From positions 620,001-684,000 of the forward strand of contig OY751493.1 of the NCBI GenBank assembly GCA_963565915.1: a DNA stretch of 64,000 nucleotides, in the 5' to 3' direction. Source of the DNA: Entoloma clypeatum. Its lineage: Eukaryota; Basidiomycota; Agaricomycetes; Agaricales; Entolomataceae. Both the position numbers and the translations under genes were made by a program. The notes beneath the pieces are model-generated. The model had not been told where the DNA came from and searched no databases. It worked only from the letters and a program-made list of their open reading frames with translations. Positions 41,800 through 63,120 of this stretch are shown here, one piece after another. Numbering within the stretch: position 1 is the first letter of the stretch; each line of letters begins with the position of its first letter.

Positions 41800-42025
41800 C
41801 TGGGGGATAAAAAGAAATTTTTTTAACTGTGGGAACGTTTCGCTGGCCGTCAACTTATGGTTCAACTTTTGGCGATTGCTGAGGTGCTTGGCAGCCAATG
41901 CTGAGCAATTGTGTTGTTGAAACTCGCAGCCTCAATGCCCAAACCGTGGCATCACAGGCCTCAAATATATTTATTAACTGATTTAGGGATGTTTATAAAC
42001 CTATTAGAAGTATATATACAGTTAT

Positions 42026-42737
42026 GTTATATCCATCTCCGAACCTCCGATCCACTCCGATCGTCCTCCGACATTCCAGACATCTGTTACCTCCGCATCT
42101 CCGCACATTGCCATCATGCATTTCATATTCATAACTCCATGCCTTTATGCATTTCATATTCATATTCCCGTTTACTTATGCATCGCCTTTTCTGCATGGT
42201 CCGTTGACCGACATCTCCAATGTTCATTACAGTCGCTGGCAACTTACACCACAACTCCGGACCTACTCCGACCATCTCCGTAAAGTAATCTCATTTAGGT
42301 ATTTAAGCTCGTACCATACCTGTAGTTCCTCAGTTTGAATATCAACAAAGTTCACTCCTCTACTCCCCGTTCATGCCAGAGATCCTCGCTGTGGTACAAT
42401 ACGCCGACGACATCGTCATCTACTGCTCTTCCTCCATCGTTACCCTTCGATGAGCTCAGTACTGTGTCCGAGTCACAACTCTGATGTCGTCCGACCATTT
42501 CCACGTCAACGTGTCTCTCACCGAGATCTTTCCGAGGACCTCTGCACCTCCGACCTCTCCTCCGACCTCCTGAAATTGGGACACCTTATCCAACAAACGG
42601 CGGCGCAACACATACATTGAAGCCATGTCCCTCCCCTTCGTCGTTCCTCTGCATTTCCGGAGTTCCGCTCCGGTCTCAGTCCTACGTCCAACCTCCGACG
42701 GACTCCGACGAAGCTCCGACGTTTCACCTACTTAACA
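42026..42737 (+). repeat. 5' LTR of gypsy A, saturated with TCCG
   Basis: 712 bases. By eye I count about 21 TCCG on the + strand and about 3 CGGA, where about three of each are expected by chance. A promoter-like TATTTAAGC is at about 42299. Downstream of the LTR the sequence TATTCGAACTCAAACC has no TGG, so the primer site is not canonical. Confidence 0.9.
42373..42453 (+). other. 26-codon RT-like peptide inside the LTR
   Basis: An ATG-to-stop frame encodes VVQYADDIVIYCSSS, which matches the catalytic YADD box and flank of LINE-type reverse transcriptases, not of gypsy elements. The same frame is kept in the 3' LTR at 62756-62836. It is too short to be an enzyme and is probably a captured fragment. 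Confidence 0.5.
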
Positions 42738-42777: not shown

Positions 42778-43935
42778 ATGGCACTCCGAAACACCAAGAC
42801 AGCAAAAGCCGCAGAAGCTGGCACTTCTAGGCAACAGGTTCTACAAAATGTCGAACAACGTTTAACAGAACTATCCCCCGTAACTCCCACTACTCCGACA
42901 CCTCCGGGTTTTCAGCCCATCACACCTCCGCATAATATTCCGATCCCCACTTCCCCCATAGAATCCGCACCCCCGTCTCCTCAGAATATTTTCGGCCCAC
43001 AAGCCCTTGCGGATGCTTTCCTCTTAATGACCAATGAACTCAAACGCAGCAAAGGTCACAAGCATCATAAAAAGGCTAAGGATCCGGACACCTTCGACAG
43101 TTCCGATCCCCGGAAACTGAACCAGTTCATCCTCCAATGCACATTGTTCTTCCGCGACAACTCCGAGTATGACGATGACTCTGCCAAAATCACTCTCGCC
43201 ATCTCTTTCCTCCGAGGCACAGCTCTCGATTATTTCGAGCATTTCATCATTGAACCGGACCCAGATAACCCCCTGGACTGGTACAAAGATTGGTCCACAT
43301 TCCTCCGCACACTCCGCACGGAATTCGGGGTCATTGACCCCGTTGCGGATGCTGCCGACTCTCTGGACAATCTCAAAATGCGCGAAAATCAACATATTCT
43401 CAAGTATAATATCGAGTTCACATGCCTTGCTGCCAAAACACACTGGGACAGCTCCGCCCTGCATCACCGGTACTACTCCGGGTTGGCGGAGTGGATTAAA
43501 GATGTCCTTGGGACTCAAGCAAAGCCAAGCACGTTACCAGCACTTAGGGAGCTAGCACAGACTATTGATGCTCGCCACTGGGAACGTCATCGCGAGAAAT
43601 CCCGCTCCGACAAATCCGCATCCAAATCTGACAAATCCGAAGCTAAAACCCCCTCCGCAAACTCTGATAAAAACTCCAAAGCCAAACCGCAGACACAGAA
43701 CCAGGGCAAACAGTCGAAGCCTTCCTCCGCTCCCAAGTCCGACATCTCCGACAAACTCGGAAAAGACGGAAAGCTAACTCCGGAGGAACGCAAACGCCGT
43801 TTTGACAACAACCTCTGTATGTTTTGTGGCAAAGCTGGACACGTCGCGAAAGATTGCCTGAAGTCTTCGTCCTCCACCTCTAAGGCTAAGGCGCGCGCTG
43901 CCCAAGCCAAGACCATGGACGAAACAAAAAATTAG
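42778..43935 (+). CDS. Gypsy A Gag, 385 residues
   Basis: An intact frame from ATG 42778 to TAG 43933-43935. It has a Pro-rich N-terminus, a capsid-like domain (KLNQFILQCTLFFRDNSEYD, LRGTALDYFEHF, FGVIDPVADAADSLDNL), a Lys/Ser-rich linker and one zinc knuckle CMFCGKAGHVAKDC at about residues 342-355. Gag would assemble cytoplasmic particles and bind the element RNA. The start is 41 bases after the LTR and in good context. The stop codon directly follows a slippery heptamer, and the protease lies in the -1 frame. Serine and arginine codons favour TCC and CGN, producing the CTCCG word also seen in the LTR. Confidence 0.9.
   Translation: MALRNTKTAKAAEAGTSRQQVLQNVEQRLTELSPVTPTTPTPPGFQPITPPHNIPIPTSPIESAPPSPQNIFGPQALADAFLLMTNELKRSKGHKHHKKAKDPDTFDSSDPRKLNQFILQCTLFFRDNSEYDDDSAKITLAISFLRGTALDYFEHFIIEPDPDNPLDWYKDWSTFLRTLRTEFGVIDPVADAADSLDNLKMRENQHILKYNIEFTCLAAKTHWDSSALHHRYYSGLAEWIKDVLGTQAKPSTLPALRELAQTIDARHWERHREKSRSDKSASKSDKSEAKTPSANSDKNSKAKPQTQNQGKQSKPSSAPKSDISDKLGKDGKLTPEERKRRFDNNLCMFCGKAGHVAKDCLKSSSSTSKAKARAAQAKTMDETKN
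43926..43932 (+). promoter_or_regulatory. Candidate -1 frameshift slippery site between gag and pol
   Basis: In the gag frame the last codons read ACA AAA AAT TAG, giving the heptamer A AAA AAT (X XXY YYZ pattern) directly before the stop. The -1 frame is open from 43932 into the protease except for one TGA near 44043. No downstream pseudoknot was evaluated. Confidence 0.5.
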
Positions 43936-44620
43936 CGGGCAGTCCACAGGACTCTGTACGGCCTGAGGACTGCGTTGAACCCATCCGTACTACCGCTCTA
44001 CTCAACGCTTTCGCTCTTTCCGATCCCAATTCCCTCCGTGTCTGACTTACATCTCCGCTTATCTCCGATTCTTCTCCGATAGCCGCCCTTGTGGACTCCG
44101 GCTCTACTCATTGTTTTATTGACTCCCGTTATGCTTCATCCTATAAACTCCCTTTCACCTCCATACCTCCGATCGAACTTAAATTATTTGACGGAATGTC
44201 CAACTCCGTCATTACTCAGGCGGTTGATCTCCCTGTATACTTTTCCTCCGGTGAATATATGGCCATTACAGCCTACGTGACTCCGCTCGATTCCTCCTGT
44301 TCTATGGTTCTTGGATACAACTGGCTCACCCGCTACAATCCTATGATTGACTGGGTATTGGGCAGTATTACTTTCCGTCCACAGCTCTTGAAGGAGTCTC
44401 CGACCTTGACGTCTTCTGCCAGGTTAGCTCCGCTACCTCCGCAGACCTCTCCCGATACTCCGACCTCCGACTCCGGCACACCCGCTGCTACTCCAGACGT
44501 TGTCCCGAATATTGCATTGATAAATGCAGCCGCATTTGTGCGCGCTTGCAAACTTCCGGGTGCCCAATCTTTCCGAATTCACCTCTCCGACCACACGATC
44601 TCCGCCCAATCCGTTTCTAC
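43932..44620 (+). pseudogene. Gypsy A protease region, interrupted
   Basis: The -1 frame relative to gag contains the aspartic protease motif LVDSGSTHCFID (about 44086-44121) and the second block MVLGYNWLTRYNPMIDW (about 44303-44354). A TGA near 44043 lies upstream of the motif. The frame is cut at 44620 by the Tc1 element and continues at 46239. Confidence 0.8.
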
Positions 44621-46238
44621 AGTGCCTCACAAAACTGATTCAATGTTTGCTACTTTGTGAATACCTTCAAAATAACTTTGCAAATAATGCCAATCAAAAG
44701 AAGGTATTGGTACCTGGTTAAAAGCCCTGCTTCAGGACTCTCGGAATCTGCAATAATTATGTAATTCCTATAAAGAATGATCAATATATGATCAAATTAC
44801 TCCAGGGACTCATTGAATCAGTTTTGTGAGTATGTACAATAAATACAGTATTTTATACTTTAGTACTTGGTATTACCCCCCTTAGCTTTGATTACTGCCT
44901 CTACCCTTCTTGGCATACTTTCTATCAGGTTTTGACACACTTCTGGCTCTATATTATTCCACACCTCTGCTGCTCTGTCCCAAATCTCCCAGACTCCCTT
45001 GGGTGGTGTTGGATATTCATTCAACTTCCTTTTAATATGAACCCAGAGGTGTTCAATAGGATTGAGGTCTGGGGACTGTGCAGGCCAATCCAGCAGAGCA
45101 ATATTCTTGCTGTCCATCCATTTTTTGGCCTTCTTGGAGGTGTGCTTGGGGTCATTGTCCTGCTGAAAAATGATCTCCTCTTCAGAGATTCCACTCTCCT
45201 CCATGCTGGGCAGCAAATTGTCCTCCAAAATAGACACATACTGATCAGCATCCATCCTCCCCTCAACCTCTGCAAGTCTCCCCACACCTTCCCAACCCAT
45301 ACAACCCCAAACCATAATATTTCCTCCCCCAAACTTGACTGTGCCCTGAACCTCTCTTTCAATAAGCCCCTCACCCTTCTTTTTCCAGACCCATTCCTTG
45401 CCATCTGACCCAAACCTGTTGATTTTGGTCTCATCTGACAAAATGACCCTCTTCCAGTCCTCCACTGTCCATTCCCTGTGCTTCATAGCAAATGCCAACT
45501 GCCTCTTCCAATGTATGGCCTTTAAGAAAGGTCTTTTCTTCTTTGTTACAGCCTTGAATTCATGTTTTCTGAGAACCCTTCTCACAGTTTCTGGGGAGAC
45601 AGGATTGGAGATGACAGTGTTGATGTGTTTGGTAGCCTGCACAGCATTGGAGGCTCTCCCTGAGGTGATTTGTGAAAGTATGTTTCGTGTGTTGGTGGGA
45701 GAAAGCTTGGATGGACGACCACCAGAAGAGAGATTGCGATGAGGAAGAAGATTCTGAAGCACTCTGGAGACAGTTGGTTGGCTGACACCCAGGTTAGAGG
45801 CAATATGACGAGTGGAGTGACCATTGGAGGCCAGAGAAAGAATGTTTTCCTTGTGGGAAGAGGAGATAGGGCGCATGATTAATTATGGAGGCAGTTAAGG
45901 TTGGATTCTTCTTATACAACTTTCCTTGACAACCCATCAGGGTTCTATTCAAGTTCCATCAGTAAGTCATGACAACTGGTTACCATACAACCAGTGAAGC
46001 ATTTGATTCTGATAATTGCCATAGGTACTCACAAAACTGATTCAATGAGTTGCTGATTTAATTTAATCATATCTCCATGGATTCTGATCTAAATCATATG
46101 ATTCCTTTATATTCTGAAAGCCCTGAAGTAGGGCTTTCAATTATATACCAAAGGTTTAATTCAATTGGTATTCTTTGCAGAGTTATCTTGAAGGTATTCA
46201 AAAAGCAACAAACATTGAATCAGTTTTGTGAGGCACTG
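44621..46238 (-). mobile_element. Tc1/mariner element, copy 2, nested in gypsy A
   Basis: 1618 bases, flanked by TA (44619-44620 and 46239-46240). The 20-base word CTCACAAAACTGATTCAATG appears four times: outer left 44627-44646, inner left inverted 44811-44830, inner right 46028-46047, outer right inverted 46213-46232. Each roughly 210-base terminal repeat is thus bounded by inverted copies of one probable transposase-binding site. The transposase ORF is intact. Confidence 0.95.
44860..45876 (-). CDS. Tc1-like transposase, 338 residues, intact
   Basis: This enzyme would bind the terminal repeats and cut and paste the element at TA. The N-terminus has two helix-turn-helix regions (IASNLGVSQPTVSRVLQNLL, about residues 25-44) joined by a GRPSKLS linker resembling the GRPR motif, and a second at VSPETVRRVLRKHEF. 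The catalytic domain is DD34E: Asp in ILSDETKINRFG, Asp in QQDNDPKHTS and Glu in PDLNPIEHLW, with 34 residues between the last two. Length is normal for Tc1. Start ATG 45876 follows the inner repeat. There is no stop or frameshift, unlike copy 1. With intact ends and ORF this copy may be able to move both copies. Confidence 0.95.
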   Translation of the reverse strand: MRPISSSHKENILSLASNGHSTRHIASNLGVSQPTVSRVLQNLLPHRNLSSGGRPSKLSPTNTRNILSQITSGRASNAVQATKHINTVISNPVSPETVRRVLRKHEFKAVTKKKRPFLKAIHWKRQLAFAMKHREWTVEDWKRVILSDETKINRFGSDGKEWVWKKKGEGLIEREVQGTVKFGGGNIMVWGCMGWEGVGRLAEVEGRMDADQYVSILEDNLLPSMEESGISEEEIIFQQDNDPKHTSKKAKKWMDSKNIALLDWPAQSPDLNPIEHLWVHIKRKLNEYPTPPKGVWEIWDRAAEVWNNIEPEVCQNLIESMPRRVEAVIKAKGGNTKY

Positions 46239-49131
46239 TATGTCCGAGGAACCTCCGGACCTCTGCCATATCCCAGAGGAATATCACGATTTTGCCGATG
46301 TTTTTAGCAAGACAAAAGCAGACACCCTCGCTCCGCATCGAGTTAGAAGACGGATCAAGAAGGACGGTTCCCTCCGCCTGTGCGTCGACTATCGGGGCCT
46401 GAACAAAGTTACCAAGAAGGATCGATATTCGAAAGAAGGACGGTTCCCTCCGCCTGTGCGTCGACTATCGGGGCCTGAACAAAGTTACCAAGAAGGATCA
46501 ATACCCTCTTCCGCTCATCTCCGACCTCCTTTCCACTGCCGGAAAAGCGCGTGTTTATACCACTCTCGATCTCCGGCATGCATCTCATCTTGTCCGCATT
46601 GCCGACGGAGATGAATGGAAAACCGCTTTCCGCACTCGTTACGGATCGTTTGAATGGCTTGTTATGCCTTTTGGACTATCCAACGCCCCTGCCGCTTTTC
46701 AGCGATTTGTGAATGATATCTTCAGTGACCTCCTCGATGTTACAGTGGTGGTCTACCTCAATGACATTCTCATTTACTCCGACGACCCCGCCAAGCACCC
46801 CGACGATGTCAAGGAAGTTCTCCGACGTCTCCGCAAGAACAGACTTTACGTCCGCTCCGACAAGTGTGAATTTTCTGTCGACACAGTCGAATATCTTGGT
46901 TTCATCCTTTCTCCCTCCGGTCTCCGCATGTCCGAAACCAAGGTGAAGACCATTCAAGAGTGGCCTGAACCTCGGAAAGTGAAGGACGTACAGTCTTTCC
47001 TTGGATTCGCAAATTTCTATCGATGTTTCATTCACGGTTATTCGGACATCGTTGTTCCGCTCACCCGACTCACCCGGAAGGGTACTCCGTTCCGTTTCTC
47101 CGACTCCGCATGGAGTGCGTTCAACGAGTTGAAGCTCGCTTTTACCAAAGCACCGGTCCTCACTCATTGGATTCCTGATCGACCTATTATCATCGAGACG
47201 GACGCCTCCGACTACGCACTTGGTGCTATTTTGTCCATCCGGACCTCCGACGAGGAGATACACCCAGTAGCGTTCCACTCCCGCACCTTCACCGCCCCGG
47301 AACTCAACTACAACACGCACGACAAGGAGTTACTTGCTATCCATGAAGCATTCAAGGTATGGCGACATTACCTTGAAGGCTCCGCTGCTCCGATCGACGT
47401 TGTCACAGACCACAAGAACCTGGAGTACTTCGCCACTACAAAGGTTCTTACCCGCCGACAAGCCCAGTGGTCCGAGTTCCTCTCTCAGTTCAATCTCTTA
47501 ATTCGTTTCCACCCCAGACGTCTCGGTACCAAACCGGACTCTTTGACTAGACGATGGGACATCTATCCCAAAGAGGGGAATAGCGACTATGCGTCGGTAA
47601 ATCCAAGCAACTTCCGACCAGTCTTTTCCCAAGAACAGCTGTCCGCATCTCTCCGAGCTACGGAGTTGTTCACCCCTGTTCTCCGCGCCACAGTCATAAT
47701 GGACATTGAACAGTTGCACTCCGACATCCTCCGCTCACTCCCATCCGACCCAATCTATGCCGACCATCTCAAGGAGCCCAAACCGCACTGGTCCGTAGAC
47801 TCCGACGGTTTCCTCCGTCATAGTGGTCGCATTTACGTCCCCGACTCCGATAACCTCCGGCTCCGCACCCTCCGCAACAAGCACGACCATATTCTCTCCA
47901 GACACCCCGGACAGAACAAGACAGTTAGTCTCATTCAACGAGATTATACTTGGCCTGGTGTTCGAGACTTTGTCAAAAAGTACTGCAAATCCTGCACCAC
48001 TTGCATGCGCTCTAAACCCCAACACCACAAGCCCTATGGTATGCTGAAGCAACTCCCAGTTCCGAACCTTCCGTGGAACTCCATATCCATGGACTTCATT
48101 GAGACACTTCCGACCTCTGGCGGTTTTGACGCAATCCTTGTTATTGTTGACCGAATGACAAAACAAAGCATTTTTGTTCCGACTACGATCCACTGCACCT
48201 CCGAAGATCTAGCCACCTTGTTCATCCTGCATGTGTTCTCCAAGCACGGAGTACCGGAACATGTCACCTCCGACCGAGGCCCGGAGTTCGTCTCCCGCTT
48301 TTTCCGCTCCCTCGGAAAAGCCCTCAACATGACTCTGCACTTCACCTCTGGCTACCATCCTGAAGGCGACGGTCAAACCGAACGTACCAACCAAATCTTG
48401 GAACAGTACCTCCGCATCTTCTGCAACTATCAGCAGGACAACTGGTCCAAGCTACTTCCGCTTGCGGAGTTCGCGTACAACAATGCTCCAAGTGCTATGA
48501 CCGGGATCTCGCCCTTCTTCGCCAATAAAGGTTATCATCCGAACCTCTCTGTCCATCCAGAGCGCGACCTCGCATCCGCCCGTGCCCGACAATTCGTCGT
48601 AGACCTGGACGAGCTTCACCAAGAACTCAAATCTACAATCCTAGAAGCTCAACGACGTTATCAAGGCCCCGCCGATCTCCGGCGTGCTCCGCCCCCTCCG
48701 CTCGAAGTAGGACAGCAAGCTTTTGTGAAGGCTAAGTTTTTCCGCACTACACGACCCTCCAAAAAGCTGTCTGAAAAGTACCTTGGCCCCTTTGACATCC
48801 TTGCCAGGAATGGTACACACTCTTACACCCTCCGACTTCCAGACACCATACGCGGTGTTCACCCCGTTTTCCACATCTCCATGCTGGAGCCATCTGTTCC
48901 GAATGACATTCCGAACCGGACAGTAACTCCGCCTCCTCCGATCGACATTGAAGGAGAAGTGGAATACGAAATCGCCGAAATCCTTGACACCAAACTGGAT
49001 CGTCGGCGTTCTTGCAAACTGCTCTACCTAGTCCGTTGGCTAGGCTATGAAGGAACCGATGAGGAACAGTCCTGGCTACCCGCCACGGAACTCGAACACG
49101 CGACGGACTTAGTCGCGGACTTCCACTCCGC
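46239..49131 (+). pseudogene. Gypsy A RT, RNase H, integrase and chromodomain (first part)
   Basis: After the Tc1 element the frame resumes with [20 protein letters not shown], but the usual next ~60 residues are missing, and a 76-bp tandem duplication (46359-46434 and 46435-46499) shifts the frame. From about 46500 a long frame holds RT ([17 protein letters not shown]), a catalytic box altered to [10 protein letters not shown], thumb [13 protein letters not shown] and RNase H ([34 protein letters not shown]). The integrase follows (zinc motif with [33 protein letters not shown]), then a chromodomain ([30 protein letters not shown]). The frame is cut at 49131 by gypsy B. Confidence 0.9.
46359..46499 (+). 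repeat. 76-bp tandem duplication in gypsy A pol
   Basis: GAAGGACGGTTCCCTCCGCC and the following ~45 bases occur twice at an offset of 76. Since 76 is not a multiple of three, it breaks the RT frame. Confidence 0.85.
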
Positions 49132-50231
49132 TGATACGACCGCTGCGCGGCTGTGCGTGAAAATTCACTTTTCCCACAGTTTTGTCAATATAAGAATATA
49201 ATGCTGGCCCCTTCACAAACATATTCTATTGGAACTGATGGTACTACTGGCTACCTAAGAGTGTCTAAATACCACTGGACCACCTTTGGTCATGATCTTG
49301 GGAACAGTCACTTTGAGGGCTTAACCAAAACTTGACACAAAACACTTTATTTCTCAATGGATAAGACCATTGAGGGGACCAGTCATTAATAAGAATATTC
49401 TATGACATATCACCCTATCCAATCACTACTATTGACTATGGACAATCTGAGGGCTCGGGGGACTCATATTAATGAGCAGGATGCCCAGCATCACAGTGTA
49501 CGACACGCGATCACAGATGCCGTGATGCCGATCTGTGTGACTTACCAGAAATAGACCGAACCCTGGAAACGGGTTCCCGGTCCGTGACGCTTCAGACCGA
49601 TCAATGACAACCGGGAACTTGATTGATTGATCGACAACATCAATATTGATGCGGCGTTCTAGAATGCTCACGAAACGACGCGTTCTTGTCGCTCCACTCC
49701 GCCAGGGCCGGTTGCCCTCTCGACACCTCGGAAATATGTTTAAAGGACCCCTGTGAATATTTGGACCATGCCCAAATAACAGATACCCTGGAAACTGATT
49801 TGTTATGGACATATCTTGTGATAAACCTTATATATATATTTCATCTCTTGTCATGTATAAAAACTGTAGTTTCCTGCCATGTACTGTAGATTAGAAAGGC
49901 CCCCCAGCCAGATCCAATCCCTCTCTCTCTCTCAGTGATTGATTGAGTGGTTAGATTTTCTAAGTCTCATCCAAAGGGAGTCTCAGTGAACCCTGAGGAA
50001 ACTCAATCTCATATTATTATTTTATTTGATCAAAACCCTTGATTGTCGACGCGTGACCTCGCGACGACTTTCTACAACAGACAAACAAGTCTAACTACTT
50101 ACAAAATAAGTGGTTAAGTTCCCGCCACCCTTGAACTAATTGTTGAGAGTGTTGTGGGGTGTTTGAGGTGTTTGTAGAGCTCTGACCAGAGTCTCTCGCA
50201 TTTTTGGCGCTCGTCACAAACTCGCTTCTCA
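49132..50231 (+). repeat. 5' LTR of gypsy B
   Basis: Nearly identical to 60221-61320. Homologous to the diverged LTR at 34121-35257. Confidence 0.9.
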
Positions 50232-50233
50232 TC

Positions 50234-50252
50234 TGGAGCCCACTGCGAGGGG
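50234..50252 (+). promoter_or_regulatory. Primer binding site candidate of gypsy B
   Basis: TGGAGCCCACTGCGAGGGG starts two bases after the LTR and matches the same site in gypsy C. TGG is complementary to a tRNA CCA end; the tRNA was not identified. Confidence 0.55.
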
Positions 50253-50540
50253 TGGTTTCAGTAGTTGACCCGTTTGCCTTCCAATTTCCTCCGTGGAGAT
50301 TGTACACCCCATCCCATACCATCGTGCTTTGTCGTTTGAGACGTGAAGTGCCGTACAGTTGATTATTTGACTATTCGTCTCGCCTGAAAAGAAAGACAAC
50401 ATACCCTTGACGAGACTTGAGAATATCTGGTATATTCCAAACCCACGCCGTCGAACCAATTTCCCGTTCGATCACAATAAAACCCAAAAGACCCTTTTGA
50501 GTCCATTCTGTGGACTCGGAAACAAAAACCCCATCGACGT

Positions 50541-52477
50541 ATGACCAGACCACGCCGCGTTGATAAACCCAGCAACCCCGTTGCACCCGAACCGCCGCCT
50601 TGGAAACTTGGTGAAAGTTCGTCATCGAAACTTGCGCCGAAATCCGCAATTTTTGAGCCCCTACCTGAGACATCCGAACGAGACCCCGACCCAGAGTTAG
50701 AAGCTACCGAAATGGCTTCTGAATCACCCACAAAAGGCATGCCCAATAGACGCGACAACAAGGCCCCGTTCTATGACAGGAATAGGCCTGAGGAATTACT
50801 CTGTTATATTGAGGATGTCATGAAAGAGTTGGTATGGACCGGTGTCTCGAGTGACCAAGAAATGAAAGATTGGCTAAGATATTATGCCGATCAGTGTACC
50901 GCAGATGAATGGACCATTTTGGAGACTTACCCACTGGAAGGCGGTTCTTTCGAAGGGTTCATAGAGGAGCTCGTTAGCCACTACCCCGAGGCTACGGATA
51001 GTCTTCAGGGATCGATCACACGCCTGGACAAGTTGTGCGCGAAGTCGACGCCCTTGACAAATGAATATCTGTCAGTAGTCTTAGAATTTATTAGATCCTT
51101 TAAATTTGAAGGATGAAAGCTCTTACGTGGCGGTTGTGTCTCAAACTGAGAACTCGTCACCAAATTCTTGAATTGTCTTGACTTTGAATTCCGAAAAACC
51201 GTGACGTGGCAAATATCGCAGAGACCCTTGAACGAGGTTAGCCCATCTGATGAAACAAGAAGGAAAGCTCCGAGTCGTCACCATACAGACCCAATTGAAT
51301 TCGAGACCCTGCTCAAGGTCTCGGAGGACTTGGCCCGATCGTTTGATAGTTATAAGGTTGTCGCCTCTGTGGTACATCCGGCATGCCTGCTAGATCTACC
51401 AATAGAAGTCAACATACCATTTTGCAAAGACCTACGGAGCCTGCTACCTCGTCCGACCGGATGGTGCAGCTCCTCGAGGACTTGAGTGAGTCGATGGCGA
51501 GGAACACAGACATCCTCGTGAATATGGCTAAAGAAGACAGTCAGCGTCACGACGAAACGACGAAGTCGTTAGAAAAGATGACTACGTTGTTGTTGAGTTC
51601 GTCGCCCTGCAAAGACCAAGGGAATATGACCATCCCGTCGAGCCCACCGTCCTGGCGAAAATGCTACTACTGTTGGGGCCCTGGACACTTCATCGCGGAT
51701 TGTCAATTCTTGACGGCGGACATACTAGAAGGAAAAGTTGAAGCTCACGCGAGAATTGACTCAGAGCATTTTCCAAAGGAACCCGCGAACCTGTCGCCGA
51801 AAGACCGATTACGTGAACTATGGAAAAATAAGACGAAGTGTTTTATTGACAATTTACCTGAGGACGGAATAATTGACCTTATTCCGAGCTGTATAGTCAA
51901 TCTTCGGAATCAGAATGAACAAGAACATAAACCGTGCTATGTTGAAGACATGCCTGATGATGGATTCGTGGACCTTGCGCCGAAAACCCTGGCCACACTC
52001 CAATCCCATCGGAATCTAGACCGAGCACCGTTCTTTGTTGGCTCGGACATACCCGAGGACGGATTCGTTGAGTTAGTCCCGAATGACCTGGTCACACTTC
52101 AATGTCATGAGAAGCGAGACCACACACCGTTGTATGTTGAGGATATACCGGAAGATGGATTTGTTGATCTCATGCCTAACGGCATGATCACGCTCCAGTC
52201 AAATTCGAATGTACGAGATAAAGAAAATGAACTTATCTCGGAATTAAAAGAAAAGGCAAGACACGCGGCTGAAGAACGCGATATGTGGAAAGCGGTGACG
52301 GATACTGGACAACTTGAAAAGAACTCGTCAGTACCGATTGCTCCCCAAGTACCGCCGAGCATACCTCAGTCGACCGCTCAGTCCACTCAAGCTACGGAAT
52401 TCATGACTATGTTAGCCAAAATGATGAGCCCTTCGACGCAGGAATGTGTTGAGAGGGTTTCCCAAGGTTCTCAATAG
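50541..52477 (+). pseudogene. Gypsy B gag with one stop, one frame change and a tandem-repeat tail
   Basis: The frame from ATG 50541 holds a Pro/Ser-rich start and then a capsid-like domain (RPEELLCYIEDVMKEL, KDWLRYYADQCTADEWTILE, EELVSHYPEATDSLQGSITR) up to TGA at 51114-51116. Remains continue in that region, then a second frame (51383-52477) carries a zinc knuckle CYYCWGPGHFIADC (about 51662-51703), four tandem repeats and a coiled-coil-like segment (ENELISELKEKARHAAEERD). The TGA is at the position of an Arg codon in gypsy C. The tail repeats are described separately. Confidence 0.8.
51832..52212 (+). repeat. Four tandem ~32-residue repeats in gypsy B gag
   Basis: Units share the core (Y/F)(V/I)xD(I/M/L)P(E/D)DGFV(D/E)LxPxxxxTLQ. 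They occur at about 51841, 51939, 52034 and 52132. The related gypsy C gag has one clear unit. Confidence 0.75.
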
Positions 52478-54341
52478 TTGCAACCCGCGCTCAGAAAAGA
52501 GCCGACGGAGTTGCATGAGGGCGATGATGAATCTTGGAAAATTGAGTATTAATAACTGAAAAGAGAATCCAAGATGGATCTAGACGAGGCCGTTGAGGAC
52601 TCAATGAACTTGATGAACTCGGAAATGACTCACCGTTCGAGACATACGAGCGTGAAACGGTACCCTCTGAAAGGTTAGGACAAGATCGCCATGAAAACAT
52701 GATTTGAATCTAAAAGGAATTGGACGACCCACCTCGTTAATCAGAGAATCGAGGTCTCATGGCACAGACTGCCCAGAGACGCCTCGCAACTGGATTCAAG
52801 GAAAATGGAGTTCAGAATCAGATCTACGCGAATGCACCGTGTCTTGAGGACTCAGTAACAGTGGCGTTCCGCCAAGGATCTCGAACGAGCGGCCTAGACA
52901 CGTCATCGTCAAAAAAAATTGACCTGCAAATGGGCAGACACATATCAGGTCTTGAGGACCATGGAAGCATGTTCGTCGAGATTGACAGGACCAGAAAGTC
53001 ATGATAGGACATCTGACTTGAGAACGTTAGATGCGTCCCACAGGATGACAATGGTACGCACTTGGATAATGAACCTAGACATGAGCAACAGAGAAGCATA
53101 GTGAACATCTACCTTGACATCCTTAACTTGGATCTCAGCTCGTCGCTGGTAGCATCGTAGTATGAAGGAAACTGTACATTGTGACTACGGGATGCGACAT
53201 ATCCATAATTGCTAGTACTACTGGTAACTACGAAATAGAGTGCCGTTTAGGGACCCTCCGGAGAGACCTGTCAAGCACATCATGGTTGAGCATCCCGTTT
53301 GCAAGAAAGAAAAATCTGACAAGGCTCACTGTTCAACATGACGGCGTGGAGCCGAAAGCCCATCAACCGCCACGAAAACGTTGATAACGGAAGGGCTTGA
53401 CCGATGTCTCTGAACGACGAGAGGGACACTCTGGTACCTTGAAATGCCAAAGACGCCCCGCCGATGATCTGGAACCAAAACATATTGACCGTGGAATGGA
53501 CAGTAATCGAGACGAACCCTACTCGCCCTGAAATCCCACGTATTATGACGGAAACGAAACGCCCGAGACCGTTGGACAGACAGAAACTGAGGTTCGCATG
53601 ACTGTGCATCCTCGAGCTGTAGAAAGGCGTGATATGGCCATAAATCGATGATGCTCGATTTATGGTGGACGTAGCTCGTTGGGAATGGCCGTGAAGCGTC
53701 GTCTCCCAGGGTAGTACCACACAAAATGGCTCGGACTTGCAGCCGGAGACGCCCATGGACGAGGACTCGAGCCTGAGCCTAAAACGCCAACCTTCGTCAA
53801 CGGTTGACTCGGAGAGTCAATTGTATTGTCTGGGGAGGGATATACATGAGTTACATACCTGGTGTTGCCCTTTCACCCATAAAATTTCGAGACCTTTGAA
53901 ATTAATAAGTCGTGCTCGAGATTCTGAACCGTCGAGAGCCCGACAGCGCCTTCGAATGATGATAATCAATGCCGACCAATGAAAAGAAAAGACTTACCGT
54001 TGAATGAACAAGACGCGGCCGGGAACGGCTGGCGCGCGATGGAAGGGCGTGCCCTTTCGCGATCTTGAAGTGGACAAATGACACCGTTTTGGAGTGAGCA
54101 AGAACAGCCTACGCCAGGACAGGCCGTTAGGGAGACAAGCGAGTTGAAACGAGGAACCTACACATAGAACGGTGCCCACGGGCGAAGTTAGGTGTGCTGA
54201 AACGATACAAGACTTACCGATCATCGAGAACGTACCATGTGCCAACGCCCTGGACCCTACTCGATGATTGGTGCCAAATTTGAAAAAGACTTGCCGAAAC
54301 AGACTTGACGGTCCGTTCTTGAGGTCTTACATGATCCTAAA
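52478..54341 (+). other. Gypsy B internal region without recognisable pol
   Basis: The first 60 bases resemble the start of the gag-pol linker of gypsy C (GTTGCATGAGGGCGA). Beyond that no protease, RT, RNase H or integrase motif was seen in any frame. Open frames are short, with stops on both strands. It may be replaced or strongly decayed sequence. Confidence 0.5.
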
Positions 54342-54652
54342 TGTTGAAGTTCCACCTGGGCGCTAGCCACAGGTGTACTGAGCAACACGGCTACAGTGGA
54401 AGTACTCTACGATACCGCTATAGTCACTTACATGGTTTGGAAGGGGGTAAGGCTGGTGAGAGCGGTTGAGGCTGGTGAGAGCGATGGAGCTGGTTAAGAG
54501 TCAAGAGACAACTTGTTGATATTGACAGTTTCCTGGTCTTATATACCGTACTACTGTTTGTACCAACCAAACAAGTATGTAATGAAGATATGTAAAGGTC
54601 ACGTGATGTAATCTAATCTAATCTAATCTACGTGATGGGAAAAGTTTCAACA
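54342..54652 (-). repeat. 3' LTR of copia 2
   Basis: 311 bases, TGTTGAAGTT...GTTTCAACA. It has one extra A relative to copia 1 (GGTTTGGAAGGGGG) and several CpG-type differences from it. Confidence 0.95.
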
Positions 54653-54729
54653 CCCCCCCATATTTAGTACATACTTCTAAATACATCTTACTTTTTCCCA
54701 CATATATATATATAGGTACTCTGTTTCGC

Positions 54730-57700
54730 CTAGTTTTTTATCAATCCGAAGTACGGGATAAACTTGGAAAAGAGGATTTTTCCCAGATTCTTAGTTAAAA
54801 GGTCTGCGGGGTTGTTCACTCCTTCAATGAATTCGACCGTAATTATTCCTTCAGAGACTTTTTCTCTGACGAAGTGGAATCGCACGTCAATGTGCTTGGA
54901 TCGCTTCTCAGTCACAGGGTTGGATGCGATAAAGACGGAGCCGTTGTTATCTCCATAGATCGGTACTGATCCGATCTGCATTCCAAGTTCGGCAAGCATG
55001 CTTCTCAGCCATGTTGCTGCGCGACTGCAATCTGATAGCGCCATATATTCTGCTTCTGTAGAAGAGAGGGCGATGGTTTTTTGCGCCGATGATACCCATG
55101 TTATTGCTCCAGACGCCAGTGATATGAAGAAGCCGGTGGTAGACCTCCTCGTGTTCTCATCTGACGCCCAGTCGGAGTCTGTGAATGCATAGATCCCTTT
55201 CCCTGAGTCCCCATCATACATTATTGCGTAATTTTTTGTTGCCTTTAAATATCTGCAAATATCCCTAGCCACCTCTAAATGGCGTTTTGTGGGATTTGCG
55301 GAAAATTGGGACATTTTGATTACAGCAAAGCAGATGTCAGGCCTCGTTCCAATCATCAGATATAGGAGTGATCCGATGACGGATTGGTACTTGGATCGAA
55401 GTTCCGCATTGGGTTCATCTTCGGACGCCATGGGTTTGTAGCCCGTAGGGAGTGGGGTATGGGTGGCGTTAGATTCGCTCATCCCCATGCGTGCCAGAAT
55501 TTTCTCAAGGTAAGGTACTTGATCAATGAAGATCCTCTTCCCACGTTGCCTTATTTGGATTGAGAGAAATTCCTTTGGTTCCCCATCGGGCACTAGGTGA
55601 CCTAGGTCCCTGCATTCCCATGTTGTCATGAAGGCCTTCTTCTTTTCTAGCGTATATTCCCGGTTTGTGCCGAGAAAAGCAGAGTCGTCGACATAGATGA
55701 CGGCAATTACAATTTCCCCGTTGGTACTTTTGTGAATGAATACTCCCGCATCGGAGTGAAGCCGGACAAAGCCGAGCTTTTTCATGGAGGAATCAAGTTC
55801 CCTCCACCAGGCTAATGCGGCCTGCTTAAGTCCATATAGAGCTTTGAATAGTTGGTACACGAGGTGTTCTTTCCCTTTTACTATGTAGCCCTCAGGCTGT
55901 CGCATATAGATGACTTCACGGAGCGTTCCATAGAGGAAGGCTGATGAGACGTCCAATAGAGTCATGAACCACCCTTCAAGGGCTGTCAATGCCAGTATTA
56001 GCCGGACGGTTTCATATCTTACGACTGGTGAGAAGATCTGATCAAAGTCGATCCCTTCTACCTGTGAGAAGCCTTTTGCGACGAGGCGCGCTTTCAGACG
56101 CCCATCGGACTTTTCGTTGTAAACCCATTTGTTCCTTAGAGCTTTCCTCCCTGCAGGCAGGGGTACTAGCTCCGTGATCACCCCGCGGCGTTTGAGCATG
56201 TCTAGCTCTTTACGTTCAGCCGCATACCAGTCTTCTTTATTTGGAAGAGGGTATATGTCTTTATGGGACATGTCGACAATGCCAACTTGGACTGATATTG
56301 CCTCCATCAGGAGGTCATTCATCCATGCCGTTTGACCGCCCAATCTCCGTCTTCGATCTAATTTTTCAAGATCAGATGCTGGAGTGTCTTCCCCATAGAT
56401 GCTTCCTGGCATCTTCCGAACTCGTCGTTCCCTGATCGGTCGATCTGGTACTTGCTCGGGTTCCGGAGTGGGTACTCGCGGTTCGTCATCAGGCTCACTG
56501 GCAGGCAGTTCGTTGTCTGATTCAGGTTGATCCTGTTCAATGGGAACTGGGATATGAGGTGTTTCGCTGTGACTATCGTCATCATTGCTGCCGGGAATGA
56601 GATCCTCAAACTCATCAGCCGGTTCTGGGTTTTCCATTTCTGGGTGGTTTTCTGGCAACGGGTCAATGTGGCATCTAGGGTACTTGCTTTCATCAAAGAT
56701 AGCTTTCCCGCCCATGAAAATCGTGTTGGTCTCAGGATCCATGAAGCGGTATCCTTTGACCCCTGGTTTCGATCCGAGATAAATCATCAATCGGGATCTT
56801 GATTCCAGGGAGTTCCTATGTTTCTCCTTTGGGATATATACATATGCCTGACATCCAAATACTCTGACACTAGACATGTCGGGGATCTCATTGGTCACCC
56901 TGAAGTAAGGGGTTTTCCATTCAAGACGCTGCATGGGGGTTCTGTTGTAGAGAAATGCTGCGTGTTCCAAACAGAATTCCCACCACATGGGCGGTAAGCA
57001 TGCATCGAAGCGCAATGCCTGAGATTTTTCCCACAGTGTTCAATTGATCCTTTCTGCTCTACCATTCTGCTGGTGCTGATATGGGAGCGTGACGTCGATC
57101 AGAATTCCATGATCGGCAAGTACATCCTTGTATTCGTTAAATTCTCCACCTCCATCAACCCGCCATTTTTTAGGGGTAGCGGCAAATTGATTCTGGATCA
57201 TCGCAAGGAATTGTTTCAGCGCCGTGGTGGCGCCTGACTTCTTCCTAAGCAAGACGACCCAGACATGGGATGAAAAATCGTCCAAAAAGGTAAGGAAATA
57301 TTTGTACTTATGGTACGATGCCGTGGATATCTGTTTCAGGTCTGAATGAATCAGATCGAAGGGTTTGACAGCCCTGGTCATTGAATTGGGGTATGACTGA
57401 TTCGGCATTTTCCCTTTGAGACACCCTGTGCAGTTTTCCTGTGATTTCTCACGTACTAATGTTTTGGGTACTCCTTTGGTACTGGTGGGAATCTTATTGA
57501 GCGCCTGGTCATTTGGGTGGCCAAGGCGTTTATGCCATGTTTCAACAGTGATTTCGCTAGAGATCGCATGGATTTGGTCATAGCGTATTTCAGTGTCTAA
57601 CCAGTAAATGGTTTGTCCAAGAATGTGAGGCGAGAACTGTATTTTGTTCTGTCCTTTGGAGATGTTAATTTCTCCGCACATTCCGTCTACTTTGTAACCG

Positions 57701-59382
57701 TGATTAAGGAAGACGCCTAGGGACAATAGGCGTGTGTCCATGTCCGGAATGTAGAATACGGGTCGGAGAAGATGGGTTTTTATTTCCCCATTTAGGGTAT
57801 GCCGTACTGGAACGGCCCCAACTCCGAGAATTTCCAGTTTCTTTCCCTTTGCAGCTGTTTGGACAAATCGCTTAGCCTTGAGAGGCCTGTAGTACGTGAA
57901 GTCTTTAAACTCATGGGTAAAGTGTAATGATGCGCCGGAATCTAAGATCCACTGAGCGCGTTCTTTTTCCTTACAGTGTGTACAAGAGGCAAAATGTTTA
58001 ATATATTTTTTGTGTAGATCACTGCTGAAGTGATCTACGCACTCTGTAGTGGTACTGGCTAATATATTATACGTCTGTTGAGAGACATAATTAGCTTTCC
58101 GCATTTGGTAAGGTTTGAGAGAAGAATGTGACGAACCGTCAAGTTCGATCAGCCCATCTTCGAATTGATCCGGCCCCATCCGCTCGCTTTGATGGTCTAT
58201 GTCCATCATCTTCAGCGATTCTTCTATCGACGGGGCTACGCGACGCTGTTTAGCCGGCCTTTCGTCGATGTCAGGAATGATGGTGTCTAGGATACGAAGA
58301 TTCGATCCTGAGGGGCGAGCACCAATGCCACGCGCGAGTTTGCGGACATGGTCGTTCTTTTTCCACACGGATGGTTTTCCAGAAGGAATCCCGGTGTACT
58401 GTGACGGAGGGGGGTTCATTCGTTGCAGGAGCGACTGCATCTTTGCGGAATCGGGCTGTGCGGTACTTGTCGTTTTCCCGCGACCAGTGACGGTGGTGAA
58501 GGATGGCGGCGGAAGAGGAGGGAAGTGGATGGCGGGAGCAACAAACTCAACCGTTTCTTCCACATGGTCGGACGCGTTGTCCGCAGTGTTGGCGTTTTTC
58601 TTTTGATTGCGCCAGCGTCCTTTTCCCTTCTTCTTTTCAGAAGCGGTACTATGGTCGGTCGAGTTAGGCTGCTCGTCAGCATCGTTCTGTGAGGTACTCG
58701 GCTTCTGCTGCCTTTCCCATTTGGGGTCCTGCCCCTTTCGCTTTGTCCCAGAAATTTTCCGGGCCTGCTCATTGGACGCACGAGTAGACCCGACCGCATA
58801 CTTGCGCCGGTATTCAGAGATGATGCTTTCGGCGACGGCTTTGTAGGTGAAATCATCGGCATCGTAGACCTGGAAAAGGGTGGTGGAGAGTGACGACCAG
58901 GCGTCGGGAATTGCATTGGCCAGGATCATTGCCTGCATCAGGTCGGGCACGACAAAGCTTGAATCGGCGAGCCGGGCGAAGAGAGACCCCAGGCGTTCAA
59001 TTTCAGGTACTGGGTCGCGTCCAGACAGTTTGTAGGTGGCGGCGGCCTTGAAATCGCCGAAGATGACGGCCGGGGATACCTTAGAGTAGGCATCCTTGAG
59101 CGTTTTCCACGCGCCAAGTGCCGAGGTGCTGTCCTTGATGTGGCGTCTGATCGCCTCAGAGACCTTCAGGCGTATCGCCCCGAGAGCTACGTCGTCGTCC
59201 CTGATCCAAGCTTTTTCTTCCTTGCGGAAGCCGGGCTGGTCGACTGTAGTAGCCAGCACAGGGGGGGCGGCAGCAGTGGCACCAGGGGTGGAGACCGTGG
59301 TGGTGAAGTCGGCGATCACAGGGCGGGTGATGTCGCCAGAAACGAGGCGCCAAACTCCTTGATGGAGGAGGTAGGACTTCAT
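54730..59382 (-). pseudogene. Copia 2 Gag-Pol, start deleted and one nonsense codon
   Basis: The sequence follows the copia 1 polyprotein closely from SWAEKMKSYLLHQ onward. The frame is divided by TGA at 57040-57042, at the Arg in the integrase motif GRAERINRT; copia 1 has CGA there. The upstream frame has 780 codons (gag, protease with WILDSGASLHF, most of integrase) and the downstream frame 761 (integrase end, RT with YVDD, RNase H). Apart from the lost N-terminus and this stop no other break was seen. The protein could not be made in full from this copy. Confidence 0.95.
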
Positions 59383-59468
59383 CTTTTCGGCCCAACTTTG
59401 GTAGAGTGGGCAGGTACTCGCTGTTGCCAGCGTTTCCCAAGTCCCTCTGCTATCCGGGGCCCATAACC

Positions 59469-59779
59469 TGTTGAAGTTCCACCTGGGCGCTAGCCACAGG
59501 TGTACTGAGCAACACGGCTACAGTGGAAGTACTCTACGATACCGCTATAGTCACTTACATGGTTTGGAAGGGGGTAAGGCTGGTGAGAGCGGTTGAGGCT
59601 GGTGAGAGCGATGGAGCTGGTTAAGAGTCAAGAGACAACTTGTTGATATTGACAGTTTCCTGGTCTTATATACCGTACTACTGTTTGTACCAACCAAACA
59701 AGTATGTAATGAAGATATGTAAAGGTCACGTGATGTAATCTAATCTAATCTAATCTACGTGATGGGAAAAGTTTCAACA
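59469..59779 (-). repeat. 5' LTR of copia 2
   Basis: Same sequence as 54342-54652. The primer site GGTTATGGGCCCCGGATAG adjoins it at about 59446-59468 on the minus strand. Confidence 0.95.
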
Positions 59780-59784
59780 CTAAA

Positions 59785-60220
59785 GACTTAAATAAAAGAA
59801 TAGAAATGAAATGATAAGACACCACTTACTTGAGGGCGTCGAACGAAACTCGACGGAGCAAGGACGGAAGCAAAGAGACAAAGACTTGCCGCCTCTCATT
59901 GTTGATGTCGTGACTGAATCAACGGATGACCAATTGATCACATGATGCACACGACGCGTCTAGATGGAACGGGCGTCAAGCAGGGAGTCACATACACTCG
60001 ACTGAAGGCGTTGAGTTGTTGAAACTCACCCACGGTCCGCATAGACACTGGAATGCAATGCCGGCACTCCGTCGTTTGCTGGTCTGCCCACGCGGACATG
60101 TAAATGAAGGAAAACTGCGAAATAAAAAGAATAAAATAAAATTTGAGGAACCTGATGACCCGAAAAATAAGACCATACCCTGAAATGATTGGGGACAATC
60201 AATTTTAAGTGTGGGGGAGA
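59785..60220 (+). other. 3' end of gypsy B internal region
   Basis: About 430 bases without a coding motif, ending in the purine-rich AAGTGTGGGGGAGA that abuts the 3' LTR and would serve as polypurine tract. Confidence 0.6.
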
Positions 60221-61320
60221 TGATACGACCGCTGCGCGGCTGTGTGTGAAAATTCACTTTTCCCACAGTTTTGTCAATATAAGAATATAATGCTGGCCCC
60301 TTCACAAACATATTCTATTGGAACTGATGGTACTACTGGCTACCTAAGAGTGTCTAAATACCACTGGACCACCTTTGGTCATGATCTTGGGAACAGTCAC
60401 TTTGAGGGCTTAACCAAAACTTGACACAAAACACTTTATTTCTCAATGGATAAGACCATTGAGGGGACCAGTCATTAATAAGAATATTCTATGACATATC
60501 ACCCTATCCAATCACTACTATTGACTATGGACAATCTGAGGGCTCGGGGGACTCATATTAATGAGCAGGATGCCCAGCATCACAGTGTACGACACGCGAT
60601 CACAGATGCCGTGATGCCGATCTGTGTGACTTACCAGAAATAGACCGAACCCTGGAAACGGGTTCCCGGTCCGTGACGCTTCAGACCGATCAATGACAAC
60701 CGGGAACTTGATTGATTGATCGACAACATCAATATTGATGCGGCGTTCTAGAATGCTCACGAAACGACGCGTTCTTGTCGCTCCACTCCGCCAGGGCCGG
60801 TTGCCCTCTCGACACCTCGGAAATATGTTTAAAGGACCCCTGTGAATATTTGGACCATGCCCAAATAACAGATACCCTGGAAACTGATTTGTTATGGACA
60901 TATCTTGTGATAAACCTTATATATATATTTCATCTCTTGTCATGTATAAAAACTGTAGTTTCCTGCCATGTACTGTAGATTAGAAAGGCCCCCCAGCCAG
61001 ATCCAATCCCTCTCTCTCTCTCAGTGATTGATTGAGTGGTTAGATTTTCTAAGTCTCATCCAAAGGGAGTCTCAGTGAACCCTGAGGAAACTCAATCTCA
61101 TATTATTATTTTATTTGATCAAAACCCTTGATTGTCGACGCGTGACCTCGCGACGACTTTCTACAACAGACAAACAAGTCTAACTACTTACAAAATAAGT
61201 GGTTAAGTTCCCGCCACCCTTGAACTAATTGTTGAGAGTGTTGTGGGGTGTTTGAGGTGTTTGTAGAGCTCTGACCAGAGTCTCTCGCATTTTCGGCGCT
61301 CGTCACAAACTCGCTTCTCA
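60221..61320 (+). repeat. 3' LTR of gypsy B
   Basis: 1100 bases, two visible differences from the 5' LTR, both consistent with CpG transitions (TGCG/TGTG near the start, TTGG/TCGG near the end). Confidence 0.9.
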
Positions 61321-61321
61321 C

Positions 61322-61361
61322 CGAGTATCCAGAGAAACTGGGCCCCTTATCACGCCTATAG
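61322..61361 (+). pseudogene. Last codons of gypsy A pol after the gypsy B insertion
   Basis: The frame left at 49131 (chromodomain tail ADFHS) resumes here as EYPEKLGPLSRL and ends with TAG at 61359-61361. The clean continuation fixes the insertion point of gypsy B. Several AATAAA words follow on the + strand at about 61388-61405. Confidence 0.85.
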
Positions 61362-61432: not shown

Positions 61433-62288
61433 CTACTGGGTTTTGGCCTTCTTGGCCGGCGGACCGTTGTCCTCCGACTCATCCTCTGTTTCTCCCTCCA
61501 CCTCCTGTTTCTCTGCTTGCAGCTCCGCAAGCTCCCCGTCCGCCAACCCCTTGTCCTCCCCCTCGTCTTTTTCCTCATCCTCTTCCTCTCCTTCTTCCTC
61601 TTCTCCGTCCTCCGTCTCCGACTCCGGAGCCGCCGCCTCCAGAAGGAAGTTCCGGTAGGCGAGGTGGTTGTTCATAATTTGAAGCTGCCGGAGCAGCGCC
61701 CAACCGACCCTCACCGACTGCTCCTCTCTCTCCTCCCGGAGCCCCCGGAGCTCCTCCGCGACCCCTGCGCCGCAGCAGCTTTTCACCCCACTCGGGCCCG
61801 CAACCTCCGCGATGGCCTCCTCCGTCTTCCCCCGTTTCCGCTTCGCCCTCGTCTCGCCGGGTTTCAGGCAAACCCGTTTGTCGTCTTTACACCGCTGGCA
61901 TGCAGTGCCCTTCCCCTGCCTAAGGAGACTGTCAGTAAGAAAAAGAAGATGAAAAAGCGGGTACTCACAATGGCCACCCGCACCCCACCTTCGCCTGCAC
62001 ACAGGTCTGACACGCCTCCCCCCGGACCTCCGAGTCCTCCGCTCCACTCTCCGCCCTCTGTTTCCCCGCCTTCTTTGCCCTCTTCCTCTCCGCCTCTGCC
62101 TCCGCCTTCGCCTCTGCCTTCTTCTTTGCCTCTGCCTCCCTCGCCCTCCTCTCGGCCTCGGCCTTCTTTCTTGCCTCCACCTCCTCCTTCTCCTTGCATA
62201 TCTGTGCCAGACGGCGCAGGAGCTCCTCTTCGGAGTCGTCGAGGTTGGCGCTGGAGCGCGCGGGTTGTGTGTTTGAGTCTTGGGGCAT
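61433..62288 (-). CDS. Antisense cargo gene of gypsy A: Zn2Cys6-like, acidic coiled-coil protein, 268 residues
   Basis: Exons 62288-61969 and 61919-61433 on the minus strand, with a 49-nt GT-AG intron (GTGAGT...TTAG), give 268 residues. Order: Ser-rich start (MPQDSNTQPARSSANL); long charged coiled coil of Glu/Ala/Lys/Arg (about residues 25-85); cysteines CQTCVQAKVGC and CQRCKDDKRVC separated by ten residues, an exact CX2CX6CX10CX2CX6C pattern of Zn2Cys6 clusters; a basic patch TRAKRKRGK; a helical part with LLRQLQIMNNHLAYRNFLLE; a strongly acidic tail; and a final PPAKKAKT that resembles a nuclear signal. The intron splits the cluster. The start is 119 bases inside the 3' LTR and the stop converges on pol 72 bases away. 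Being antisense, the intron would not be spliced from the genomic RNA. DNA binding and nuclear role are inferred. An opposite + strand frame of 260 codons is Ser/Pro low complexity and was rejected. Confidence 0.75.
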
Positions 62289-62407
62289 GTTGGTGGTAAC
62301 TGGAAGAAAACCCTTGGGCCGCTCATCTCCATTAAATAACCGAGACCACATGACCTTGTTTATTTTCTCGCGGTCTTCCATGGGTGTCAGACCTAAGAGG
62401 GGAATAC

Positions 62408-63120
62408 TGTTATATCCGTCTCCGAACCTCCGATCCACTCCGATCGTCCTCCGACATTCCGGACATCTGTTACCTCCGCATCTCCGCACATTGCCATCAT
62501 GCATTTCATATTCATAACTCCATGCCTTTATGCATTTCATATTCATATTCCCGTTTACTTATGCATGGCCTTTTCCGCATGGTCCGTTGACCGACATCTC
62601 CGATGTTCGTTACAGTCGCTGGCAACTTACGCCACAACTCCGGACCTACTCCGACCATCTCCGTAAAGTAATCTCATTTAGGTATTTAAGCTCGTACCAT
62701 ACCTGTAGTTCCTCAGTTTGAATATCAACAAAGTTCACTCCTCTACTCCCCGTTCATGCCAGAGATCCTCGCTGTGGTACAATACGCCGACGACATCGTC
62801 ATCTACTGCTCTTCCTCCATCGTTACCCTTCGATGAGCTCAGTACTGTGTCCGAGTCACAACTCCGATGTCGTCCGACCATTTCCACGTCAACGTGTCTC
62901 TCACCGAGATCTTTCTGAGGACCTCTGCACCTCCGACCTCTCCTCCGACCTCCTGAAATTGGGACACCTTATCCAACAAACGGCGGCGCAACACATACAT
63001 TGAAGCCACGTCCCTCCCCTTCGTCGTTCCTCCGCATTTCCGGAGTTCCGCTCCGGTCTCAGTCCTACGTCCGACCTCCGACGGACTCCGACAAAGCTCC
63101 GACGTTTCACCTACTTAACA
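62408..63120 (+). repeat. 3' LTR of gypsy A
   Basis: 713 bases, about 98% identical to 42026-42737. Preceded by the purine tract AAGAGGGGAA and followed by the duplicated AGTTA. It also contains the 26-codon YADD peptide (62756-62836). Confidence 0.95.

Follow-up and report, generated by a model that had tools for sequence, protein, structure and literature searches.

The 64,000-nucleotide stretch of Entoloma clypeatum DNA analyzed here (the window; contig OY751493.1, positions 620001 to 684000) contains a chromodomain-bearing gypsy retrotransposon, designated family A. Between the stop codon of its pol gene and its 3′ long terminal repeat (LTR) lies a two-exon gene of the minus strand (62288-61969 / 61919-61433) that encodes 268 amino acids. 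Comparison of genomic copies shows that this spliced antisense gene is kept by selection as protein-coding and that it moves with the element, inside the transposed unit. It is probably an old accessory gene of a chromovirus clade, with regulation of the element’s own expression as the favored role. The two-exon structure, the position and the exact six-cysteine pattern had been reported in the initial annotation, and all are read directly in the sequence. The parts of the gene are as follows:

61969-62288, minus strand: exon 1, with the start codon (ATG at 62288), a charged probable coiled coil (judged by eye) and cysteines 1-3
61920-61968, minus strand: intron of 49 nt, GT-AG, phase 2 (GTGAGT...CCTTAG), separating cysteine 3 from cysteine 4
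61433-61919, minus strand: exon 2, with cysteines 4-6, a basic stretch, an acidic tail and a KK-rich end; the stop codon ends at 61433
61868-62012, minus strand: six-cysteine cluster split by the intron, pattern CX2CX6CX10CX2CX6C

The splice donor is at 61968 and the acceptor is at 61920. The acidic tail named in the annotation is evident from the composition of residues 206-257 (30 D/E vs. 3 K/R); the N-terminal coiled coil, judged by eye, is probable. Three other long frames overlap the gene: an unspliced 299-aa frame and a 193-aa frame on the minus strand and a 260-aa frame on the plus strand.

A DNA search with the gene was run against the window’s own genome (60.1 Mb, 20 contigs), and 40 copies, including that of the window, were scored out of 148 candidates. 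These copies were picked by similarity to the antisense gene; of the 39 non-window copies, 20 were examined in loci of 9.5 kb and 19 in loci of 1.6 kb. The window gene is 86-93% identical to the other 39 at the DNA level. The start codon ATG and the stop codon TAG are kept in 40/40 copies, the donor GT in 39/40 and the acceptor AG in 40/40, and 38 of the 40 introns contain a CTGAC branch-like site. The spliced frame is intact in 29 copies. The six-cysteine pattern is present in 36 of the 40 translations, the exceptions being two intact and two broken copies.

Most exon indels relative to the window copy have a length divisible by three (111 of 119), compared with 27 of 58 in the 3′ gap, 0 of 9 in the spacer between the start codon and the LTR and 5 of 10 in the intron; these tallies count copies and not events, so that shared indels are counted many times. 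Third positions are the most diverse in the spliced frame (0.107 in exon 1 and 0.139 in exon 2 vs. 0.051-0.076), this excess persists after the removal of CpG columns, and the codon periodicity shifts across the intron, following the spliced frame. For the 29 intact copies, the ratio of non-synonymous to synonymous differences per site (pN/pS) in the true frames is 0.30 for exon 1 and 0.32 for exon 2, while the other antisense frames give 0.93-1.29 and the open sense frame 1.12 and 1.41. Two other sense frames, distinct from the open one, have values of 0.47 (exon 1) and 0.40 (exon 2), which are read as mirror images of the true frame. The pairwise ratios include changes that arose after insertion, which push them towards 1. 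By region, the cysteine cluster has the lowest ratio (0.12), with 0.22-0.41 elsewhere in the protein.

The unspliced 299-aa minus-strand frame and the 260-aa sense open reading frame (ORF; 61517-62299) were rejected as coding candidates: their ratios are at least 1.01 where they differ from the true frame. The 193-aa frame continues the frame of exon 1 upstream across the spacer into the LTR, and the spacer indels, none a multiple of three, speak against such an extension. Several overlapping long frames and a biased composition could be taken as signs of chance open frames in a stretch that is C+T-rich on the sense strand. Periodicity, the phase of indels and pN/pS all point to the spliced antisense frame, which makes it more than chance; the chance explanation is refuted by the frame-specific ratios, the periodicity shift across the intron and the phase of the indels, and we give it next to no credence.

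The strength of selection is that of the element’s own genes. The values of pN/pS are 0.32 for gag, 0.29 for the protease region (PR) and 0.38/0.32 for pol; set against this range of 0.29-0.38 (14-18 sequences each, window included), the antisense gene has 0.29 (15 sequences), and the similarity of the values indicates that it is constrained like gag, PR and pol. Its synonymous diversity, pS, is 0.163, as against 0.063-0.081 in gag, PR and pol of loci of the same set (pol 0.064-0.072). CpG richness may account for part of this high value; the variability of the antisense gene drops without CpG columns, a comparison made for the gene only. These results also bear on the proposal that antisense transcription itself is functional, through double-stranded or small interfering RNA or through interference with sense RNA, the protein being secondary. 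An antisense transcript of this region would base-pair with the genomic RNA, and antisense-RNA control has been raised for such elements (PMC7264820). However, amino acids in the spliced frame are under selection as strong as that on gag and pol and exon indels preserve the frame, making this proposal improbable.

The gene was found inside the transposed unit, as had been claimed. In the window, AGTTA stands outside both LTR ends as a target-site duplication, and the order of pol (as far as present), antisense gene, spacer and LTR is the same in 20 of 20 gene-chosen long loci. Two full LTRs are present in 10 of these loci, with an identity of 96.3-100% and, in eight of the ten, an exact 5-bp duplication. 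As the first copies had been chosen by the gene, a second survey was started from the reverse transcriptase (RT). Of 150 RT matches, 98 were taken as family A and 47 as a sister family, B; five were omitted (one partial A-like and four D-like). Both the RT places and the antisense-gene places come from the matches listed, so the counts are lower bounds. In family A, the antisense gene lies no more than 3.5 kb downstream on the opposite strand in at least 79 of the 98 places, with no same-strand case and no gene in 19 among the matches listed. Within 12 kb the gene is found at at least 87 of the 98 places; among the matches listed, 10 have none, and there is one same-strand case, in which a neighboring copy was met first and the place has its proper match within 3.5 kb. 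The window copy itself is counted among the misses, its gene being ~15 kb off through nested insertions. In family B, the gene is found at at least 42 of 47 places within 3.5 kb (none on the same strand) and at at least 45 of 47 within 12 kb. The antisense position before the 3′ LTR in most copies, the retained intron and a ratio below one, all put forward in the initial annotation as marks of a cargo gene, are thus borne out, the last as purifying selection.

Two sister families recovered by the RT search, B (79-82% RT identity) and D (77-78%), have pol DNA about 75% identical to that of family A. In the 3′ halves of two loci of each, an antisense gene occupies the same site as in family A, and its intron, 49-51 nt long and in phase 2, again falls between cysteines 3 and 4. 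The proteins of the three families have a common layout of charged N-terminal stretch, split cluster, basic stretch, acidic region and KK-rich end. The cluster halves are separated by X12 in B and X8 in D (X10 in A), and in five aligned cluster segments only the six cysteines and one lysine are invariant; there is little other sequence in common. The family B gene is enclosed by an LTR pair of 534 nt (99.6% identical), bordered on each side by TGTGC when the first aligned base is assigned to the flank, and the family D gene by a pair of 467 nt (100%) that has CTGCT and CCGCT as its flanks. Used as protein queries against the genome, exon 2 of D and that of B yielded 153 matches each, in several subfamilies (150 candidates were scored, with pieces of one place counted apart); in the D search, matches above 277 bits list no stop. 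Exon 2 of the two D loci differs at 0.57 synonymous (dS) and 0.21 non-synonymous (dN) changes per site, with 117 of 164 residues identical.

The D loci, L050 and L051, have nearly identical first exons and quite different second exons, that of L051 with a tandem duplication. This contrast suggests recombination between subfamilies near the intron.

The simplest history would place the gain of the gene before the split of A, B and D. The initial annotation had left open whether the gene was captured or long-resident; the shared site and intron position in B and D mark it as old and lineage-typical rather than a fresh capture. A host gene that one element had recently captured and kept as a passenger would also have its intron if capture took place at the DNA level, and the genome search lists places by score only, so that a host gene among them would go unmarked. 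The counterparts in B and D, which share the site and intron position and hardly any sequence, and a constraint equal to that on gag and pol argue against such a capture, which we consider very improbable.

The intron also informs on the mode of spread. An antisense intron is not spliced out of sense genomic RNA; as all 40 copies have it, they spread via sense RNA, as expected, and none derives from the spliced antisense mRNA. Antisense-intron reporters are used to detect retrotransposition, and the conserved antisense intron is a natural counterpart of these constructs. As the intron sits in the middle of the cluster in three families, the cluster can be encoded only by spliced minus-strand mRNA.

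The spacing of a Zn2Cys6 binuclear cluster is CX2CX6CX5-12CX2CX6-8C, and such a cluster binds two zinc ions and CGG-type DNA. The cysteines of families A, B and D (CX2CX6CX8-12CX2CX6C) fall within this spacing. The Zn2Cys6-like character proposed for the gene thus stands in its spacing and stops short of the Pfam Zn_clus cut-off; as that cut-off is unreached, the domain is filed here as a cysteine cluster of Zn2Cys6 type and not as a PF00172 member. The antisense protein resembles Gal4-type factors of PF00172 in its spacing, its acidic segment and its probable coil. It differs from them in that the coil is N-terminal to the cluster, the intron lies inside the cluster and the Pfam score is below the cut-off.

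Given the probable coil, the basic stretches and the acidic tail, a nuclear regulator is the likeliest reading of the protein. Transcription would start within the spacer of 119-166 nt or from the 3′ LTR on its antisense side. The start codon is 119 nt from the LTR in A, 131 nt in B and 166 nt in D, and because it is so near, the promoter should be in one of these two places. The spacer is the least variable of five stretches compared in family A, which fits a promoter without proving one; the polypurine tract is located in the spacer as well. The two LTRs being alike, an antisense promoter within the LTR would equally drive transcription out of the 5′ copy into the neighboring host DNA. The N-terminal coil could serve dimerization, the basic stretches nuclear entry and the cysteine cluster binding to DNA or chromatin, while the acidic tail would modulate the element’s transcription or its silencing, with HTLV HBZ or the nuclear Grande gene23 protein as a model; the protein could be an activator, a brake or an anti-silencer.

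A possible target for such a protein was at first seen in the motif CTCCG, which occurs on the sense strand of the window element at 13-25 per kb in the LTR, gag and pol, far above dinucleotide-shuffled and codon-shuffled controls and the rest of the window. The pol genes of B and D are likewise enriched. The enrichment drops at the ends of the family A element in most long loci. The right-hand flank of the motif varies by family (TCCGC in B; TCCGA and CCGAC in D). In A, B and D, the enrichment of TCCG/CGGA falls mainly on the sense strand, and in E, a more distant and abundant gypsy family, it is found on both strands; neither a copia element nor two further long ORFs in the window show TCCG/CGGA enrichment. 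The idea of a motif array read by the element’s own protein has its analogy in VANC of VANDAL transposons.

Several observations weigh against a zinc-cluster regulator. The CTCCG array was rejected as a set of CGG half-sites for the antisense protein: family E, in two loci with no antisense gene after pol, is equally enriched. In these loci, no minus-strand ORF of 100 aa was found in the ~480 and ~1180 nt after pol, LTR limits not being determined; gypsy elements here therefore need no such gene in general, and a loss in family E is possible. Model PF00172 scored under its 21-bit cut-off in all four segments compared (best 16.6 bits, E 0.0085, family B) and was not listed for any of five full family A proteins at E ≤ 10. 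For some members, the DNMT3 ADD zinc-finger model gave an equally weak or a better match (best E 0.0014 with full proteins; 17.8 bits against a cut-off of 26 with segments), and no PDB sequence relative of the antisense protein was found. In addition, 11 of the 40 copies are broken, two intact copies lack the six-cysteine pattern and two broken copies share an identical deletion near the C-terminus; unless that deletion arose twice, a lineage without an intact tail, or one helped in trans, may have spread.

The evidence for coding and selection applies equally to a protein that is selected and does not regulate transcription, acting for example in nuclear import, integration-site choice or particle assembly, with the cluster making contacts to protein or RNA. 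The below-cut-off score with the Zn2Cys6 DNA-binding model of fungi agrees with such a protein, as does the integrase chromodomain that the element already has for targeting. We regard this alternative as rather unlikely, though a serious one, and retain regulation of the element’s own expression as the favored role. A more far-reaching version, to be taken as tentative, is a clade-wide HBZ-like system in chromoviruses of mushroom-forming fungi, in which a nuclear zinc-cluster regulator is made from a spliced antisense transcript and diverges fast outside the cluster. If so, the intron in the metal cluster would allow the active domain to be made from spliced minus-strand mRNA alone and never from genomic RNA, and the divergence between families outside the cluster would resemble an arms race or self/non-self discrimination. 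HBZ itself is a spliced bZIP protein of an animal retrovirus, with another fold, and no homology with the fungal gene is claimed.

Antisense genes have been described in several LTR elements. HBZ of HTLV-1 is the nuclear product of an antisense gene and matters in the virus life cycle (PMC11963269), with an antisense promoter inside the 3′ LTR (PMC7264820). Plant elements with an additional antisense ORF ahead of the 3′ LTR include Grande, RIRE2, Retand and PvRetro13 (PMC7264820, PMC11963269). The plant aORF-3R (Grande gene23, RIRE2, Retand ORF4/TRP28) has the same place and orientation as the gene described here and is kept in most copies, and some of its products are nuclear or predicted to bind DNA (PMC7264820, PMC11963269). 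Plant aORF-3R has TRP28 or SMC-like domains in place of a six-cysteine cluster, Retand is of a non-chromovirus lineage unlike the fungal chromovirus studied here, and the intron common to the families here is not described for aORF-3R in the passages of PMC7264820 and PMC11963269 consulted. The initial annotation drew its comparison with plant elements; in fungi too, a gypsy element, Boty of Botrytis cinerea, has such a gene, brtn (Zhao et al. 2011, as cited by PMC8365987 and PMC7264820), located between pol and the 3′ LTR as here (PMC7264820); the gag-pol of Boty includes a CHROMO domain (PMC4227169), and brtn is likened to the present gene by place and orientation, from the citing papers. 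A literature search of titles and abstract openings, with the 2011 brtn paper outside its reach, found no intron-containing cysteine-cluster antisense gene in fungal gypsy elements. Antisense extra genes as such are already known, and the spliced cysteine-cluster form is new. The function of antisense genes in LTR elements is an acknowledged open question (PMC7264820). Many-copy families in one fungal genome, some with LTRs 99-100% identical, are a good place to learn their role; a splice junction at the intron would directly reveal correct expression, and the gene can be compared between its three diverged versions (A, B and D).

Protein searches with family A queries returned none of 7992 scored candidates at E ≤ 0.001 and none of 142 at E ≤ 1; as the search requires exact five-residue words and the protein is of low complexity, this is weak evidence of absence. 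In the same database, the best 120 of 6976 pol matches include close relatives named from Agaricus, Coprinellus, Pleurotus, Leucocoprinus, Meripilus, Trametes and Lentinula, and one amoeba relative at 45%. The Agaricomycete names among these pol relatives, and one hydrophobin match over the cut-off, point to an agaricomycete as the likely host. No relative was found in the viral contigs scanned with pol. One contig filed under a Bacteroidetes metagenome-assembled genome (L056) has a gypsy pol, 40% identical, followed by gag again downstream, an arrangement that makes it probably a eukaryotic contaminant. Between the end of its pol and the next gag, the only minus-strand ORF to reach 90 aa is one of 154 aa, which overlaps gag.

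The remaining features of the window element are as follows:

42025-42737, plus strand: 5′ LTR of the family A gypsy element, 98.2% identical to 62408-63120; preceded by AGTTA
42778-43935, plus strand: gag, ahead of PR/pol; Pfam DUF4939 (25.4 bits, cut-off 29) and zf-CCHC (17.4 bits, cut-off 20.8) both under cut-off
44091-44617, plus strand: frame also found in other copies and split by a later insertion, which we take to be the protease region from its position and a DSG motif
44618-46240, no strand assigned: later insertion with inverted ends
46403-49131, plus strand: pol (RT, RNase H, integrase, SH3, chromodomain; Pfam on ORF 46664-49201)
49132-61320, plus strand: later LTR element in the end of pol, with LTRs of 1100 nt (99.8%), containing a copia element at 54342-59780
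61321-61361, plus strand: final pol codons and stop TAG (61359-61361)
62289-62407, no strand assigned: spacer of 119 nt with polypurine tract, a probable leader or promoter region of the antisense gene
62408-63120, plus strand: 3′ LTR, followed by AGTTA

ORF 46664-49201 matches Pfam RVT_1, RNase H, rve and Chromo, all over cut-off, which identifies the element as a chromovirus. The two LTRs form a pair with 13 differences over 713 positions, 12 of them transitions. The copy spans 21 kb solely through the insertions at 44618-46240 and 49132-61320, which break its PR and pol; its antisense gene is still open although pol is broken. The 1.6-kb element with inverted ends at 44618-46240 has a second copy in the window, at 15782-17395, and the two are 98.5% identical. 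The nested copia element has identical LTRs and CTAAA flanks, and another copia copy, at 17506-23292, shows 97.7% identity.
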